From NCBI RefSeq assembly GCF_032854445.1, contig NC_088300.1, positions 15,903,191 through 15,967,190 on the forward strand: DNA of 64,000 nt, in the 5' to 3' direction. The stretch comes from Liolophura sinensis (taxonomy: Eukaryota > Mollusca > Polyplacophora > Chitonida > Chitonidae). Shown one piece after another: positions 16,401 through 64,000 of the stretch. Below the pieces are notes generated by a model that saw only the letters and a list, made by a program, of their open reading frames with translations, had not been told where the DNA came from and made no database searches. Numbering within the stretch: the stretch's first letter is position 1; every line of letters begins with the position of its first letter. A program made the translations under genes and the position numbers.

Positions 16401-19400
16401 TGTTAGAGCTGTAACTTATGGTGAAGCTACAGTATGTATCAAGTTTCAGTTCTACACAGTGAATGATTTTGAAAGGAAATAACCTGGAAAAACTTTCTTT
16501 AACCAAAAACGGCCCGGCCATCTTCATTGGATCAAGCTGGCAATGTCCAACATCATCTACTTTACTGAGCCGTATTAATGTTTCAAGCCTGAACTTTCCT
16601 TCATAAATATGCAGGATTCATAGCCCAATCAGGTTCCACTTTACAAAGCCCTTAAGAGTTCAAAACAACAAGGCATAGTAACGACTATGAGGTGTAGATG
16701 GAATAATTTTATTTCACAGTAATCTCAGAAGAAGTGCTAGTGCAAAAAATAAATCCCTGCACATTGGCTTGTTAAAGGTTATCAGGGGAATGACAGGGAG
16801 CACGGGGGAAACCCATGACCATCCGCAGGTTGCTGAAAGATCTTCCTGGGAAACAACGACAAACTTATGGACAGGCAGCCCAAACAGGGATGCTAAGCTA
16901 GGCTCACCTTCCTAGTAATTTCATCAATAACAACTTTCCAGCTATCAACAGAAAATTATAAATTTTATAGCGCTTTATAAGAGATATAAAATATGACTCC
17001 AAAATGAAAGTTTTTCTGTTTCATTTTTTTCACTATCTTTAGACCAAACTCTTCAGTCAGAACTTTACAAACAAACAGCACATATGGACCTTGTGCGAGT
17101 ACAGTGTACACTGGTGGGTGTACATGTAACAAGCACTCTCTACTGTGTCTCAGCTACTGCTTACCTTTGCCTCAAGAACCAGGCTTGATGAGGGCATCTT
17201 AGACATCTTGTACAGGCAAATGGAGAGAGAGATGCCTGCGATAACGAAAAGTGTATCATTGATGGCCACACGCACCGTCAGGATTTCCACTGGGACAGAC
17301 TTGTACCGCTTCTCCTGGTCCTTCACCACAATCGCACAGACTAGGTTCGTCACGATGAAGATGATGACAGCAAACACCACACCCAGACGTAACGGGGTTC
17401 TAGAAAACAAGCGCTGATGTCATGACCCAGACTTAATAGAGTTTGGAAAAGTGCTGATGTCATGACTGAAATGTAATGGAGTTCTGGAAAACAAGCGCTG
17501 ATGTCAAGATCCAAACGTAATGGAAATGTAGAAAAGCGCTGATGTCATGACCCAAATGTAATGGAGTTCCCCAAAACAACAACTCCAGCATTTGTGTCTT
17601 ATTTATTAATAGTGGAGTATCTATCAATAGTGAAGCCCTAGTACTATGTGTTTCAAGTAAACTGGAGAGTGCAGACTAAAAATTAAGACATCTGACAAAC
17701 CTTCTGAATTTAATTAGCTGGGATTCAAGGCTGTGATATCATACTATCTCAAAAACATTTGGTAAATTATTCCACTCTAATTCATGGGCGCCTGCTGCAT
17801 ACTCTGACAAAGTGATAGTTGAGCAAGCAACCGAAGATTAATGGTGTCTGCTCACAGATGTACAGGTGTATACTTCCGCTGATCTCAGCGATTTATCACC
17901 AATGTTATGTCTTCATAGATTCAGCATGATGAGAAAACATAGCCAGGTATTGGGAGGCCTGATACATCTGGTCAGGTAGATACCAATGATGGGAGTCTTT
18001 ATAGAGAAGAGAAATATACAAACTTGAGCTCAAACTCAATGTTAGACAACTCTGAGTGGTCAAGAATTATAACAATCCCACTCATATATACATGCATTTA
18101 TGAACATTTAGACATAAACCAAAGAAAATAACAGTAACTTACTTGTACCTGTTGGGCTCAAATTTCGCTCTCGCCTTAAAAACCACCTGGGAAATAAAAT
18201 GGAAAATGTTAAGTTTGAGTTTATTCCAGTTTATCAAGAAATACAGCATGTAGGTACAATTTATGGTTAACAGAAACTGGGCAAAAGCCCTGGGAAAACA
18301 AACCAAAGCATGCTCTTCACCACATATACCTGAACATCTTTAGCTTTTCTAACCTGTAACTACTGCTTTCCATTCCCTTATATCACCCTAGATAAATAAC
18401 AGGTAAACACCAATGACAGGATAGATGTGTGCAATGAGAACCTTTCTCATGTACTGTATCTTCCTAAGTCTGTTTGAGCTCAACATTTGCACATATGTAA
18501 ATGGCTTCTTTCCTCACTGAGCCAGCAGAACACAATACTTAATACTGCCTTACACATTGCATACTACATCTTTACAAAGTGAAAGTATGTACTTTAAAAA
18601 TCTATATGCATGCTGGTGATTTTTAATAATATAACATTCAAATATAATGTTTTCTTTTGGTTTGTCAAAAGTAACATATATAGTCAAACATTAAATATGT
18701 ATATATACATTGTGGTGGAGATCACATCTGATCTACTAAATGTACCTAATAGAAGGTTACTGGTGGATAAAATGTATGTCCATCTGTATACAATGAAGTT
18801 GCCAATGGTTGAAACATATCGAAAAATTGACTCGCAAAGCTTTATGACAATGGGTCCATAATTCCAGCACTCTATACATGTACCTCCATGAAATTCCTCA
18901 GGTTACCACATGTAATATAATGCCAATTTCCATGTATCAATATCAGAAACACTCTCCCAACACACACTGCCCCTTCCCCTCTCACTTGTCCTCTTCTTTC
19001 CCAAGATACATCCAAATTCATACACCCAGAGCACCAGATTCCAATGAAACTGGTTGGTTACACAACCATCATAATTTGTGAAGGATTCACGTTGTCGTGT
19101 GTGGGTTCAGGGCATTTTTGAACCCGTCAAAAGGGTTTGGGGGTGAGACGTTTGGGATCTCAAATGATGACATTAGCATATCTTTGTGTTACACGCAAGT
19201 GGTCAAACTGAATGGAAAGGCTACCCAAATTATTCCGTTAGATCAAGACCTTGGTTACAGCAGGATTTGTGATAACAGTCACTTCGTAGTTTAATTATTA
19301 CTTTAATATCTTCAACAAAGGAGAGTTATGAGACCAACACAAAATCTCATAAGTTGTGGGAAGTTGGCAGGAAGTAAACAGTTGTATTTTGCTATGGCAA

Positions 19401-28003: not shown

Positions 28004-44736
<16,733 letters not shown>

Positions 44737-45835
44737 TATGGGAGAGGTATAATCATGCAGCACAGATGTGTATACATTTTCTACAGCACAGAGCTACAGG
44801 TGTAAATCAACATTGTACAGCCCGGCTTCAGCAATAATTGTGTGTAACTGATGTGTGCAAGATGTCGACAAAGCAGGGTTGTGATAGATGAAACAGGTTT
44901 AAACACTTTGCAGTAGAGATAATGTGTGTAAATGTTCTACAGCACAGAAAAGGTGTAGACATTATGCAGTAGAGATGTGTGTAAATGTTCTACAGCACAG
45001 AAAAGGTGTAGACATTATGCAGTAGAGATGTGTGTAAATGTTCTACAGCACAGAAAGTGTGTAGACATTATGCAGTAGAGATGTGTGTAAATGTTCCACA
45101 GCACAGAAAAGGTGTAAACATTATGCAGTAGAGATGTGTGTAAATGTTCTACAGCACAGAAAAGGTGTAGACATTATGCAGTAGAGATGTGTGTAAATGT
45201 TCTACAGCACAGAAAAGGTGTAGACATTATGCAGTAGAGATGTGTATAAATGTTCCACAGCACAGAAAAGGTGTAAACATTATGCAGTAGAGATGTGTGT
45301 AAATGTTCTACAGCACAGAAAAGGTGTAAACATTATGCAGTAGAGATGTGTGTAAATGTTCTACAGCACAGAAATGGTGTAGACATTATGCAGTAGAGAT
45401 ATGTAAATGTTCCACAGCACAGAAAAGGTGTAGACGTTCTACTGTAAATGTTCTACAGCACAGAAAAGGTGTAGACACTATGCAGCCCTTCATAAGGAAT
45501 AAGTGTGTGATCAGAGTGTGGCAGTTATCACCAAGGTAGGGTTTTAGGAGAGAGGTGTAAACAGATGTGCAGATGTGATCAAGTCATCAAAAGAGTGTAT
45601 AATAAGTGTCATCAAGTATCTGCAAGCCATTAACGCAGTAGAAACATTGTGATAGGGAATGTGAAGAAGTGTAAGCATTACACAATCTGGCATAAGGCCA
45701 TCAACAAAGTAAGATTGTTGTCCAGAGATGTGTAGGGAACAAGTGTGCGACTGATGTCTGCAAGCCATTAATGCAGTAGAAAGATTATGGTAGGGAAAGT
45801 GGAGAACTGTAATGTACAAGACCATATTCCACTCA
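44737..45835. repeat. repeat field built from the IARS2 terminal exon
   Basis: 44810-44945 is a diverged copy of the exon end and the bases after it (CGACAAAGCAGGGTTGTGAT is shared almost exactly). About ten 53-bp units follow at 44951-45468 (AGGTGTAGACATTATGCAGT then AGAGATGTGTGTAAATGTTC). Then come at least two more exon-like fragments: 45470-45545, where one frame reads CRHYAALHKE then stop, and 45668-45715, which reads CKHYTIWHKAINK. These resemble CRRYTAQHKE of the real zinc finger. The field is probably in the IARS2 3' UTR or just past it. Confidence 0.88.
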
Positions 45836-56500: not shown

Positions 56501-59500
56501 GAAATCTGGATGTATACACGAAAAGCTGATACATAAGTTAACCCTGAGATTCCCAACCTTTGAAAGCAAAACTCCAAACATGTTCTGAAATCAGTGGTAT
56601 TTTGGTATAGTTGGGTGTGTAAAAAGACACTTTCAGAAGCACACAATGGCCTTACAATTATACTTTTAACGCCCACAAGTTTTTCTGATAAGAAATTAAT
56701 CAAGCTTCACTAAAAACTCATAAGTGAGCATACAAGGCGGATGAATAAATGAGAATCAAGTAAAATGTGTGACCTTAAAGAGGCTAAACTTTAGGTGAAA
56801 TACAGTAGTATGTCTGTAGCCCATTCTTTCCATTTTTATTTTTCCATATTCAGATGTATGTGTCTTATGTGAAAAATATTACACCTGTAAATTTTGTCCC
56901 CGTACAAGTACAGAAGCTATAAATTTTCTCCAAATGATGACAAAACGTCCTCTGGTGTATGATGAGGATAACACAGATATATCTGTGTAAACTGAGGAAT
57001 CACTGACCTCGGGATCCCTATTCCACTGAGCAGCATACTCCCATGCACAGTTAGCCATGAGTACATCATTCTCCAGGCTGTATGGGAAGTGGGACTGTAA
57101 CTCTGTGAACTGTGACCTCAGTCTGTCTGACACACCAGAGTTCTCTCCCTTCTCTACCTCTTCTGTCTCCATTGAGCTCTCCTCCTCAGGGGTTTTATGA
57201 GGACTGTTAAAAACATGTGAGGAGAGGCCAGTGCGACAGACATACCGGGCTACAACCTCGGGAACATAGCCTGGAAACAGAATAAGTAAGGAGAGTAATG
57301 AATACAATCATTCCGCAACCTTTTCGCATATGAAAGAACAACTTTTAGTGCAGTTTATGCACATTTTTCATTTGATTTTGGGGACAAAACTATTGTTTGG
57401 ATTGACATTGTCAGGGCTTCACAAAAAGTATAATTTGATTAGTCAACACAGAATGCCTTCAGAATCAGCTTAATTGAACACCTTTCAATCGTGCAAAAAG
57501 GTTGAAAAATTACAGAAAATGCTTTGTAGCATTGTACAGTTCAGTAAATTCAGAGAATGAGTAATATGAAATCCAATTACAAATTTTAAATGTAAAGTTT
57601 TATAAGACTTGCATTTTTACTAAATACTTACAATGTGTTACGCACAGCCAAGACTATTGCACCAATGCAATGGTTATCGTGTTTATTCCTTTAATGATTT
57701 GCTTGCACATTTGACTAACCTTTTCCTCCTTCCAGAAACTTGGCCACTGACACACCTAACCCATTCACACCCGCCTCAGAGTGGACTGGTCCTACATTGT
57801 CTGAGCTTGGTGTGATTTTCAGAATGGTGCTTATGGCCAGGACATCCTCCAGCTGTTTAATGAGGTTGGTCCATTGTTCTATGTCTACAGTAATGGATTC
57901 CCAGTCGGATGTGTCCATGTTCTCATCTGGAGGTGTACTGGCAGTGTCTGCATCAGGATCCTTTAATAACAGTCCCGCATTTCAATGTATTTTATGATAA
58001 AATCAGACAATATGTCCAACAACTTATAAATGGCAACTTGGACTATCTCAGATATAGCACTTTAGAAAATCTGTGGTCTATCAGTCACATGTAGTACACG
58101 TTCATGCATGTTGGCATAATACTCCTGTGGAGGGATGGACTCGCCCTGCCACAAGAAAACACAGTATTTACACACACAACGAATGAATCCTCGTTGTCAG
58201 ATGACAGAAAAATGATTAAAGACGATGTATAAACCTGAGTATACATACATGCTTACTAACAGCCAAATCTGCTGGTATGTATAAAAATGAGTTCACAGAA
58301 AAGTGGACATTTTGCATCAAACTTCATGAAGTACACTAACCTTAGCTGTGGTCTGGTTCCGTAACAACTCTAAAGAAACACTTCTTCCAACGACAGCGAG
58401 AAGAATGGCAGCACAGGCTCTCTCTGAACGGCTACATGAGTCTCTTAGCTTTTGCCACCAGGGGGACACAGTATTGGGATCCACAATCACATCTGACGTT
58501 TCTTAAAACAGATCCCATAAAATATTTCTCTAAGAATTCCAAGTACATGTACATACAAATACAGGTACAGAGAGTTTAACTGATAATCTGTGGACTGACA
58601 GGAGGAGTGTTCATTTGGTCATTTTCTTGACTAAGCAATGTATCCTGATAATTTGTAAGTTATTGGTAACATAGTGATATGGTCATCTGCCAATGAGTCA
58701 CCTGTGCAACGTAACCATCACACAGGTAATGTCCTTGACCAGGTAACACAATGGCTCACCTCATGCCTGACAGGCAGTTAATGCAGTGAATCCACTGACT
58801 GAGAACTACAGTCTTCCTTTGACTGCCAGTGATGGGTCACCTATAATAACTCACCTGTCACAGGTAAAACATTTAGTCCAGCAATTCTGATGCCTCAGCC
58901 ACATTTGCACTGTGACCAAAAACCAGCTTCACATTCAACCTTGATGAAACCTTTTAGTTCACAGGAGGAATTAATATATTTTCACCTTAAGTCTTAACAC
59001 ACATGGCCACCATGGCCTGCGTCTCGCACGCCAATCTACTGTACTCACCAGATGTCACCATAGACAATGCCGACAAAGCCATAAGTATGGTCAGGTATAA
59101 CTTACCTGTCATACAGGTAACAGATTTGATCAGGTAATACAAGCAGCTCTTTGACTGAGGGTTACGATCATCTTCTGACAGCCAATAACTCACCTGTCAT
59201 ACAGGTAATAGCTTTGATCAGGTAATACAGTGGCTCTATTGACTGAGGGTTACGATTGTCTTCTGACAGCCAGTAACTCATCTGTCATACAGGTAATAGA
59301 TTTGATCAGGTAATACAGTGGCTCTATTGACTGAGGGTTACGATTGTCTTCTGACAGCCAGTAACTCACCTGTCATACGGGTAATAGCTTTGATCAGGTA
59401 ATACATCCACTCTATTGACTGAGGGTTACGATCGTCTTCCTACAGCCAATAACTCACCTGTCATACAGGTAATAGCTTTGATCAGGTAATACAGTGGCTC

Positions 59501-62500
59501 TATTGACTGAGGGTTGCAATCGTCTTCTGACAGCCAGTAACTCACCTGTCACACAGGTAATAGCTTTGATCAGGTAATACAGCGGCTCTATTGACTGAGG
59601 GTTACCATCATCTTCTGACAGCCAGTAACTCACCTGTCATACAGGCAATAGCTTTGATCAGGTAATACAGCGGCTCTATTGACTGAGGGTTACCATCGTC
59701 TTTTGACAGCCAGTAACTCACCTGTCATACAGGTAATAGCTTTGATCAGGTAATACAGCGGCTCTATTGATTGAGGGTTACGATCGTCTTCTGACAGCCA
59801 GTAACTCACCTGTCATACAGGTAATAGCTTTGATCAGGTAATACAGCGGCTCTATTGATTGAGGGTTACGATTGTCTTCTGACAGCCAGTAACTCACCTG
59901 TCATACAGGTAACAGCTTTGATCAGGTAATACAGCAGCTCTATTGACTGAGGGTTACGATCGTCTTCTGACAGCCAGTAACTCACCTGTCATACAGGTAA
60001 CAGCTTTGATCAGGTAATACAGTGGCTCTATTGACTGAGGGTTACGATCGTCTTCTGACAGCCAGTAACTCATCTGTCATACAGGTAATAGCTTTGATCA
60101 GGTAATACAGCGGCTCTATTGATTGAGGGTTACGATTGTCTTCTGACAGCCAGTAACTCACCTGTCATACAGGTAATAGCTTTGATCAGGTAATACAGCG
60201 GCTTCTTTGATTGAGGGTTACGATCGTCTTCTGACAGCCAGTAACTCACCTGTCATACAGGTAATAGCTTTGATCAGGTAATACAGCGGCTCTATTGATT
60301 GAGGGTTACGATCGTCTTCTGACAGCCAGTAACTCACCTGTCATACAGGTAATAGCTTTGATCAGGTAATACAGTGGCTCTATTGACTGAGGGCTGCGAT
60401 CGTCTTCTGACAGCCAGTAACTCACCTGTCATACAGGTAATAGCTTTGATCAGGTAATACAGTGGCTCTATTGACTGAGGGTTACGATTGTCTTCTGACA
60501 GCCAGTAACTCACCTGTCATACAGGTAATAGCTTTGATCAGGTAATACAGCGGCTCTATTGACTGAGGGTTACGATCGTCTTCTGACAGCCAGTAACTCA
60601 CCTGTCATACAGGTAACAGCTTTGATCAGGTAATACAGCAGCTCTATTGACTGAGGGTTACGATTGTCTTCTGACAGCCAGTAACTCACCTGTCATACAG
60701 GTAACAGCTTTGATCAGGTAATACAGTGGCTCTATTGACTGAGGGTTACGATCGTCTTCTGACAGCCAGTAACTCACCTGTCATACAGGTAATAGCTTTG
60801 ATCAGGTAATACATCGGCTCTATTGACTGAGGGTTGCGATCGTCTTCTGACAGCCAGTAACTCACCTGTCATACAGGTAATAGCTTTGATCAGGTAATAC
60901 ATCCGCTCTATTGACTGAGGGTTACGATCGTCTTCTGACAGCCAGTAACTCACCTGTCATACAGGTAATAGCTTTGATCAGGTAATACAGCGGCTCTATT
61001 GACTGAGGATTACGATCGTCTTCTGACAGCCAGTAACTCACCTGTCATACAGGTAACAGCTTTGATCAGGTAATACAGTGGCTCTATTGACTGAGGGCTG
61101 CGATCGTCTTCTGACAGCCAGTAACTCACCTGTCATACAGGCAATAGCTTTGATCAGGTAATACAGTGGCTCTATTGACTGAGGGCTGCGATCGTCTTCT
61201 GACAGCCAGTAACTCACCTGTCATACAGGTAATAGCTTTGATCAGGTAATACATCGGCTCTATTGACTGAGGGTTACCATCATCTTCCCACAGCCAGTAA
61301 CTCACCTGTCATACGGGTAATAGCTTTGAACAGGTAATACATCCGCTCTATTGACTGAGGGTTGCGATCGTCTTCTGACAGCCAGTAACTCACCTGTCAT
61401 ACAGGTAATAGCTTTGATCAGGTAATACATCGGCTCTATTAACTGAGGGTTACCATCGTCTTTTGACAGCCAATAACTCACCTGTCTATAGGTAATAGAT
61501 TTGATCAGGTAATACAGTGGCTCTATTGACTGAGGATTACGATCGTCTTCTGACAGCCAGTAACTCACCTGTCATACGGGTAATAGCTTTGATCAGGTAA
61601 TACAGCGGCTCTATTGACTGAGGGTTACGATCGTCTTCTGACAGCCAGTAACTCACCTGTCATACAGGTAACAGCTTTGATCAGGTAATACAGCAGCTCT
61701 ATTGACTGAGGGTTACGATTGTCTTCTGACAGCCAGTAACTCACCTGTCATACAGGTAATAGCTTTGATCAGGTAATACAGCGGCTCTATTGACTGAGGG
61801 TTACCATCGTCTTCTGACAGCCAGTAACTCACCTGTCATACAGGTAATAGCTTTCATCAGGTAATACAGCGGCTCTATTGACTGAGGGTTACCATCGTCT
61901 TTTGACAGCCAGTAACTCACCTGTCATACAGGTAATAGCTTTGATCAGGTAATACAGCGGCTCTATTGATTGAGGGTTACGATTGTCTTCTGACAGCCAG
62001 TAACTCATCTGTCATACAGGTAATAGATTTGATCAGGTAATACATCCACTCTATTGACTGAGGGTTACGATCGTCTTCTGACAGCCAATAACTCACCTGT
62101 CATACAGGTAATAGCTTTGATCAGGTAATACAGTGGCTCTATTGACTGAGGGTTACGATTGTCTTCTGACAGCCAGTAACTCACCTGTCATACAGGTAAT
62201 AGCTTTGATCAGGTAATACAGCGGCTCTATTGACTGAGGGTTACGATCGTCTTCTGACAGCCAGTAACTCACCTGTCATACAGGTAACAGCTTTGATCAG
62301 GTAATACAGCGGCTCTATTGACTGAGGGTTACGATCATCTTCTGACAGCCAGTAACTCACCTGTCATACAGGTAATAGCTTTGATCAGGTAATACATCGG
62401 CTCTATTGACTGAGGGTTGCGATCGTCTTCTGACAGCCAGTAACTCACCTGTCATACAGGTAATAGCTTTGATCAGGTAATACATCCGCTCTATTGACTG

Positions 62501-63957
62501 AGGGTTACCATCGTCTTCTGACAGCCAGTAACTCACCTGTCATACAGGTAATAGCTTTGATCAGGTAATACAGCGGCTCTATTGACTGAGGGTTACGATC
62601 GTCTTCTGACAGCCAGTAACTCACCTGTCACATAGGTAATAGCTTTGATCAGGTAATACAGCGGCTTTATTGACTGAGGGCTGCGATCGTCTTCTGACAG
62701 CCAGTAACTCACCTGTCATACAGGTAATAGCTTTGATCAGGTCATACATCGGCTCTATTGACTGAGGGTTGCGATCGTCTTCTGACAGCCAGTAACTCAC
62801 CTGTCATACAGGTAATAGCTTTCATCAGGTAATACAGCGGTTCTATTGACTGAGGGTTGCGATCGTCTTCTGACAGCCAGTAATGTGTTAAGAGGTCCTA
62901 TTAAAGACAACAAAGGAACATGCAGCTTAAGATGATGAAACATTACATGTGCTTCTGAACAGTACAATAACTTGAATAGCCTGGGAGAACAATAACTGTC
63001 TTTGATTTTGCAAAAGGGTCTTCAAATGTTTTGAAATGCAGTTCAGTAACAATACATCCATATTATCAAGTTATAGCAGGAAAATGAGCTCAGTTAAATA
63101 TGGAGTCAAATCAATGCATTTGTATGAATAATGTGTTCCCATGTAATGACAAATGCTAAGTTTGCTTCTTTCTCAATTACTTAACATAATTAAATTCACA
63201 TGTATTATTACATACCATAAGTTGGTCAGGTCCTAGGCCAGAGCTCTGCAGAACAACGCTCAGGTCTGCTGGCAAAACTCGTCTGTCTAGGCATGCCCCA
63301 AACACTAAGCGTCCTGTGAAACAAAAGTGAAAACATACTTCCATAGTTTCTGTGATATTTCCACTCCAGACTGGGTGCAAGTGATATCCACATCTTGGCA
63401 GGAAAGTCTCTTGTCAGCCATCTTGGATAGTGATTTTAACACCAGAATGTGTAAGAACTATGTTACATTAAGGCTGTCGACAGTAGGTCACACAACCTTT
63501 AATTAATGTTACAAACAAGTCAGAAAAATCAGAGACAAAAGCTTAAACAAAATTACACAAAAGTACATGGAATAAATGCGTGCCATAAAAAAACAGTGAA
63601 GATTTCTGCTGAATAGGAGTTTCTTAGAAAGTCAATTATGGTCACCAATTTTTACATGAAACAAACTATGTTTTCAGGAAAAAGTTGCTATTGGTAGTTG
63701 CCCTTACCCAGGGATATTTTCCGCTCCTCACTCATGTGCTTGCCCAGGGTCAGTCCTCCATGTTTGCCAATGTGCGACTCTCGGGAGTGATGGTCCAGGT
63801 GAAAACAGTGCAGGTAAGGAACCACATTCAGACAGCTGTTCAGGTCAAAGGACACATGACCACCTGCACTTTCTTGGACACAGCTGTGAAACTGTTCCAC
63901 CTGAGATAACAGGTGTTCAATCTCTGACTGATTGACTAACAGCAGCGATGTGAGGTG
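50515..63957 (-). CDS. RAB3GAP2: Rab3 GTPase-activating protein non-catalytic subunit, C-terminal 17 coding exons (partial)
   Basis: Regulatory partner of RAB3GAP1; the complex is a GAP for Rab3 and a GEF for Rab18, acting in exocytosis, ER structure and autophagy. Exons 5' to 3': 63957-63708, 63313-63216, 62897-62801, 58501-58341, 58145-58098, 57960-57720, 57270-57008, 56487-56421, 56184-56114, 55863-55828, 55344-55270, 55202-55137, 53356-53144, 52815-52726, 52215-52045, 51529-51371, 50658-50515. Phases agree throughout: 2250 nt, 749 residues plus TAA at 50515-50517. Diagnostic stretches include VSPWWQKLRDSCSRSERACA, MMAAAYLMEKVGKPPKERLC, and VHGPASLVELSVEQRATNYG followed by VKVLSLFDSKGKNAFFNDLH. 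The N-terminal half lies right of the window. Identification rests on family memory plus its tail-to-tail position beside IARS2. The intron between 62801 and 58501 is almost wholly an array made from the 62801-62897 exon. Confidence 0.93.
51761..52012 (-). mobile_element. SINE in RAB3GAP2 intron, near full length
   Basis: Reads from the reversed tail (TTTTTATTTGACTGGTGCTT, TCAACAAAATTTCACTTATA) through GCCAGTATTATGGTGGGAGG, ACCCATGATCATCCATTGGC and ATGAGCTGGACTTGAACTCA (B-box region). It ends with a tRNA-like head near GTACAGGTGTTCTAACCCCC. Same family as 23290, 41862 and 55541. Confidence 0.85.
53650..53720 (-). mobile_element. SINE fragment
   Basis: TGATGTACTCAAGAATTTTT followed by CACCTATAAGACAGCTG matches the region just inside the tail of the common SINE. 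The remainder is missing. Confidence 0.55.
53955..54755. repeat. 55-61 bp minisatellite, 14 copies, two variants
   Basis: Every unit contains GCCACCTCACTGGTCAATGG and AAATCAGGGCTGTATTT. Two internal variants occur: CCCTACAACAGCA (shorter) and CCTGACAGTTACAGCA (longer). They account for the spacing differences and partly alternate toward the right end. It lies inside a RAB3GAP2 intron, about 380 bp from the nearest exon, and open frames across it are repeat by-products. Confidence 0.95.
54785..55130. repeat. two adjacent copies of a ~180-bp dispersed repeat
   Basis: Copies at about 54800-54965 and 54985-55130 share TTTTTGTGAAGCCCTGA, GGCCA-TCCAACCAAT, CATAAA-TGCACTG and GTTCTTTCATA. Related sequence in the opposite orientation lies at 57330-57500, with parts at 46465-46530 and 37840-37900. 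The second copy ends just before the donor of the 55137-55202 exon. Probably a non-autonomous DNA transposon; I did not find clear terminal inverted repeats. Confidence 0.7.
55541..55785 (-). mobile_element. SINE in RAB3GAP2 intron, minus orientation
   Basis: Starts TTTATTTATTAAATTGGTGT, then CTCAAGAATCTTTCACTCAT, AGCCTGAGGGAAACCCATGA, GCATCCGCAGGTTGCTGACA and GAAGCCAGCATGAGCTGCAC. Ends with a tRNA-like head region near GTACAGGTGTTCAACACG. Confidence 0.82.
57330..57500. repeat. dispersed repeat copy, plus orientation
   Basis: AAAGAACAACTTTTAGTGCA, TTTATGCACATTTTT and GTCAGGGCTTCACAAAAAGT are the reverse complement of blocks in 54785-55130, in the matching reversed order. Confidence 0.7.
58685..62896. 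repeat. 88-bp array made from a RAB3GAP2 exon and its splice donor, 43 donor junctions
   Basis: Reading the minus strand, each unit is 83 exonic bases (from TTACTGGCTGTCAGAAGACG to ACCTGTATGACAG) plus the first five intron bases GTGAG. Junctions lie every 88 bp from 62798 down to 59103, with one 1-bp deletion near 61490, giving 43 copies of ACAG|GTGAGT or close variants. The rightmost (first transcribed) copy merges with the unique 5' end of the exon at 62884-62897. Copies differ by few substitutions. At the far end, 58685-58900 holds two decayed copies separated from the core by unrelated sequence. The last core copy has ACAG|GTAAGT. The array fills the 4.3-kb intron between exons 62801-62897 and 58341-58501. 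Confidence 0.98.
62801..62897 (-). CDS. RAB3GAP2: RAB3GAP2 exon that seeded the 88-bp array
   Basis: Acceptor AG at 62899-62898, donor GT at 62800-62799. Its 97 nt read DLLTHYWLSEDDRNPQSIEP followed by LYYLMKAITCMT and a split codon completed by the exon at 58501 (Thr-Glu-Thr-Ser). Phase analysis shows this first copy plus the first donor restores the frame. Using the second donor instead shifts the frame and meets TAG inside the 58341-58501 exon. Reading straight through the first donor meets TGA at the second junction. Confidence 0.9.
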
Positions 63958-64000
63958 CTGAAAATATCATACACAGCTGTGAAACTGTTCCACTTGAGAT

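Follow-up and report, generated by a model that had tools for sequence, protein, structure and literature searches.

Mirages are minisatellites at exon boundaries that were described in amphioxus (PMC3087553, PMC3902484). The available portions of these reports place them in TnC, in the globin genes BflGb6 and BflGb9 and, by way of PMC3087553, in Adh3, with similar repeats in PGBD5. Their tandem units span an exon-intron boundary on either the donor or the acceptor side, an authentic coding exon forms the terminal copy, and many units keep AG/GT splice signals. Concerted evolution that bypasses the edge copies, and array lengths that are unstable from allele to allele, also characterise the class. 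The same portions report the amphioxus arrays without disturbance of splicing (PMC3087553, PMC3902484), and one of them regards cryptic use of the repeat splice signals as possible (PMC3087553). Intron gain by tandem genomic duplication is also comparable, in that a duplicated AG/GT gives matching donor and acceptor candidates; as described in the accessible part of PMC3443670, AGGT duplication makes a new intron, whereas the array reported here enlarges one.

A window of 64,000 nt from the chiton Liolophura sinensis was analysed (assembly GCA_032854445.1, published as Liolophura japonica, with the species later corrected; PMC12441733). By its sequence, a long tandem array at a coding exon of RAB3GAP2 in this window is a member of the mirage class, in a mollusc rather than a cephalochordate host. 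The features of the locus, given in window coordinates, are as follows:

63216..63313, minus strand: RAB3GAP2 exon preceding the array exon
62897-62801 (97 nt), minus strand: RAB3GAP2 coding exon, which is array copy 1, with donor 1 at 62800
59101..62883, minus strand: 43 copies of an 88-nt unit, the exon itself being the first copy (TRF and copy list)
58880-58660, minus strand: about two decayed older copies past the array (alignment score and shuffles)
58341..58501, minus strand: RAB3GAP2 exon after the array intron, with its acceptor at 58501 or, likewise in frame, at 58492

Exon 62897-62801 is followed directly by 42 more copies, down to 59101 on the minus strand, so that the array spans ~3.8 kb within a 4.3-kb intron. 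The unit crosses the exon-intron boundary, being made up of 83 nt from the 3' end of the exon and GTGAG, the first five intron nucleotides, and its terminal copy is an authentic coding exon that lies inside a RAB3GAP2_C match. TRF returned a period of 88, 43.0 copies, 94% matches and a score of 6707; copy 16 has 87 nt and all others 88 nt. An initial annotation of this DNA had described the unit as a coding-exon body with the first five intron bases, copied about 42 times downstream, and both TRF and the copy list agree with it. The 43 near-identical donors that it counted are indeed arranged in tandem, but only 40 of the 43 are intact GT donors, as the GT is replaced by AT in copies 10, 32 and 41 (CAG/ATGAGT, the slash marking the junction). 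The donor 9-mer CAG/GTGAGT is identical in 39 of the 43 copies, the exon copy counted, while copy 43 reads CAG/GTAAGT; AG/GT splice signals are thus kept by 40/43 units. The copy number of 43 compares with 6 and 3 units in two BflGb6 haplotypes, as given in the available amphioxus text. Beyond the array, 58880-58660 aligned to the unit with a score of 114.5, which 0/500 shuffles reached (highest 81); this makes the lower bound near 58685 proposed in that annotation reasonable. The intervening ~220 bases (59100-58880) had no detectable similarity to the unit, with 345/500 shuffles scoring as high. A repeat family dispersed in the genome was rejected, since a junction 28-mer searched with up to two mismatches across the 609-Mb genome gave 40 matches, all 40 within the RAB3GAP2 array. 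A structured RNA was likewise rejected, no Rfam family reaching its gathering score anywhere in the window.

The earlier assignment of the host gene to RAB3GAP2 is upheld by Pfam matches to RAB3GAP2_C (E=3.1e-56) for the spliced segment containing exon 62897-62801 and to RAB3GAP2_N (E=4e-120) for the joined upstream exons. Genome-wide, over 632 contigs, 7/7 matches to the RAB3GAP2 C-terminal family fall at the array locus. No homologous protein was found at E 0.001 among 1272 candidates and no PDB relative was significant (best E 0.73), so the identity rests on Pfam and on our reading. Exons were predicted with a toy gene finder that used generic splice matrices, and its start of the next RAB3GAP2 exon, 58423, was replaced by 58501. 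The acceptor at 58501 has a poor crude score (-1.92), which counts against the explanation preferred below. On our gene model, none of the 23 RAB3GAP2 introns measured is shorter than 283 nt, and the last array donor lies 604 nt from acceptor 58501.

Copies differ from each other at an average of 5.3 of 88 sites and from the exon at 5.5. The core copies are ~6% apart with no clear distance trend (4.85 differences at one step, 4.8-5.6 further out), and copies are decayed at one array edge. By codon position, 13/28 columns vary at position 1, 8/27 at position 2 and 10/28 at position 3, with no coding constraint seen, and CpG columns are the most variable (a mean of 7.0 minor copies versus 1.04). 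Variation of this kind is typical of intron sequence free of constraint. There are 33 distinct 83-nt bodies among the 43 copies, and 26 of these bodies are unique to a single copy. All 42 later copies depart from the exon body, each by at least three differences, so that many later donors are distinguishable from donor 1. Tandem arrays are error-prone and the HiFi depth is 14X according to the available part of PMC11068029, which might suggest an assembly artefact, but the mean HiFi read in the same source (8,347 bp) exceeds the array (3.8 kb) in length. The 33 distinct bodies and the decay at one edge also count against an artefact, which we regard as very improbable.

When splicing jumps directly to 58501, the frame is kept by donor 1 only. 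A stop is met from all 42 later donor positions, 39 of which are intact, and read-through of the array stops at codon 52 from the exon start, as do the later donors; a working gene consequently needs donor 1 or later repair. Use of acceptor 58492 also keeps the frame, with three residues lost. In addition, an open in-frame segment of 69 nt, extending from a weak CTGTCAG to the donor, is present in 36/42 copies, and by way of such segments in-frame routes through the array would exist on paper. The proposal that donor 1 alone gives a normal frame therefore stands for direct jumps to 58501, but acceptor 58492 is a second in-frame target, and cryptic splicing within the array is another route, one that the proposal overlooked. 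The 36 open segments, which the toy gene finder chained together, might be taken to mean that the copies act as cryptic 69-nt exons adding 23-residue protein repeats. This is scarcely credible given that codon-position constraint is absent, acceptor scores are poor (mean -0.22 over the first 13 copies), only 19 nt lie between neighbouring segments, and the frame would fit by chance one time in three.

We consider that the array is probably a randomly seeded mirage-type minisatellite, tolerated because exon definition picks the donor nearest the upstream acceptor. A segment running from the end of the exon into the first five bases of the intron would have been tandemly duplicated and then amplified into the intron, in a genomic setting of heavy minisatellite content. 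The array would be nearly neutral if exon definition leads to use of the donor nearest upstream acceptor 62898, the copies presumably being removed together with the 4.3-kb intron. Arrays may be seeded more or less anywhere, those at exon edges surviving with an intact exon copy at the correct end. Strong first-donor choice, one of two possibilities raised in the initial annotation, appears the likeliest explanation of this tolerance: the donor 9-mer cannot single out donor 1, being common to 39/43 copies, and distance to the upstream acceptor can distinguish it. In the accessible part of PMC9225289, exon definition takes over once flanking introns exceed 200-250 nt, and under it the upstream of two identical donors is favoured in minigenes; exon definition in the chiton is assumed from its intron lengths and from these results on other genes. 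That part also quotes an older in-vitro rule by which the intron-proximal donor wins (PMC9225289). The older rule would favour the last donor, so the locus is a real test of donor choice. As a natural experiment, it sets 40 intact donors of nearly the same sequence (39 GTGAGT, one GTAAGT) in competition, and because only one direct donor choice is protein-compatible, it tests exon-proximity against intron-proximity rules.

The initial annotation had also suggested that the array modulates RAB3GAP2 output, the use of later donors feeding nonsense-mediated decay. Such tuning would be compatible with the premature stop from 42/42 later donor positions and with a donor that pairs well with U1 (-12.7 kcal/mol). 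Against it, the donors have no detectable extra conservation, 2/9 donor columns being variable versus 31/79 others (Fisher P=0.47, a low-power test). Moreover, similar arrays occur at unrelated genes and at acceptors, as set out below, which argues for a general mutational process. We found no support for the suggestion and hold a regulatory array to be quite improbable.

Recursive splice sites, or ratchet points, consist of a juxtaposed acceptor and donor (AG/GT). The RAB3GAP2 unit ends likewise juxtapose AG/GT, and differ in their modest pyrimidine content and in being tandem near-identical copies. If these sites work, a unit end (AG/GTGAGT) would serve as an acceptor and then regenerate a donor. 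By one route, donor 1 would be joined to a unit end and then spliced again to 58501; by another, after use of a wrong donor k, donor 1 would later be spliced to the AG of unit k. Given the sequence identity, either stepwise removal or repair would yield the exact normal mRNA. AG/GT is kept at 40/43 unit ends, which fits such a scheme, but exons commonly end in AG and AG/GT is therefore expected in many donor arrays. Scored as acceptors with a crude, likewise generic matrix, the unit ends have a mean of 2.43, which exceeds 97% of 845 background intronic AGs and 12/26 annotated acceptors, although these scores are effectively one observation, the copies being of common ancestry and non-independent. 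A branch-like CTRAY motif is found 15-45 nt upstream in 42/43 unit ends versus 8.2% of the background; it is not diagnostic here, since only 1/26 annotated acceptors carry it. The pyrimidine content of 0.55 further weakens the case, and we judge a self-correcting array of this kind unlikely.

Turning from this locus to the wider genome, we found 58 arrays of period >=15 in a 220-kb sample, covering 17,248 bases or 7.8%. The sample combined 30 kb from the flanks of the window with 19 stretches of 10 kb, which came from eight scaffolds and were placed at round coordinates. Boundary-spanning arrays were identified at further exons, as follows:

63878..64000, running 60 bases on to 64060, minus strand: two-copy 93-nt acceptor-junction duplication at RAB3GAP2 exon 63957-63708
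L008 8760-9699: donor array at RAB3GAP2 exon 73778-73677, past the window, with a unit of 23 nt of exon and ~41 nt of intron in ~14 copies
34603..36075, plus strand: donor-junction array at the exon ending at 34630 of a tRNA synthetase gene, with a 58-nt unit in ~15 copies, then variants
17381..17579, minus strand: acceptor-junction array before a presumed GPR137-like exon, with a 44-nt unit in 4-5 copies
L041 257-832 and L040 465-782, strand of the gene: an array at the acceptor junction of a protein-kinase exon in each, both outside the scaffold of the window

The gene with the 34603..36075 array has a Pfam tRNA-synt_1 match, indicating a class I tRNA synthetase, which we take to be IARS2. 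The gene with the 17381..17579 array is tentatively called GPR137-like, a Pfam search of it giving no match. Another predicted gene with a Pfam Rad51 match is presumably XRCC3.

In the 94 kb made up of the window and its flanks, boundary-spanning arrays occupy 5/94 edges of 47 selected exons, which were taken from the toy gene finder by score or homology, with low-scoring predictions omitted. Three are of donor type (RAB3GAP2 62801, RAB3GAP2 73778-73677 and tRNA synthetase 34630) and two of acceptor type (RAB3GAP2 63957 and GPR137-like 17399). On other scaffolds, acceptor arrays were found at 2/24 edges of 12 kinase exons, a non-random set chosen by hand from 135 hits as partial-domain hits, for which two edges per exon is a nominal count, since a splice site may be lacking at some ends. 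The pooled count from this small, hand-picked sample is 7/118 nominal exon edges (95% interval 2.4 to 11.8%). Nine plus-strand predicted exons at -7804 to 378, which are presumably ERO1-like, were left out; by coordinates they have no array contact, and adding them gives 7/136. A 27-copy array of an 89-nt unit (L024 3468-5846), a candidate donor array beginning inside an open exon-like segment that ends CATCAG/GTAAGA, was also left uncounted, the segment being without a Pfam match.

Straddling arrays numbered 5, against 1.7 expected by random circular shift (P=0.019); with the focal array removed, the figures are 4 against 1.6 (P=0.06) and the placement test is then weak. Wholly engulfed exons numbered 0, against 4.0 expected. 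Targeting of array birth to junctions is unsupported, as random placement is exceeded by a small margin; we read these counts as roughly random seeding together with removal of exon-damaging arrays. The findings suggest that exon-boundary minisatellites may be common in a mollusc, in which case they would complicate gene annotation and provide raw material from which introns and exons could change. The broader combination, in which exon-edge minisatellites are found genome-wide in this chiton (~6% of edges in our small sample) and AG/GT donor arrays correct themselves, is decidedly unlikely. Were self-correction true, long arrays would be buffered rather than merely tolerated, with wrong choices spliced away tracelessly. 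No report of mirages in molluscs appeared among the open-licence papers listed, nor in the available portion of a paper on mollusc introns (PMC7931591), and, as far as these searches go, the class is here extended to a new phylum with a long array.

Two further observations concern repeats of other kinds. A 53-nt array at 44890-45435 lies just 3' of the tRNA synthetase stop codon, and its flank resembles that gene's final coding exon in decayed form. Contig C99 carries COX1 seven times, every ~15.5 kb, and probably represents a concatemer of mitochondrial DNA retained in the assembly.
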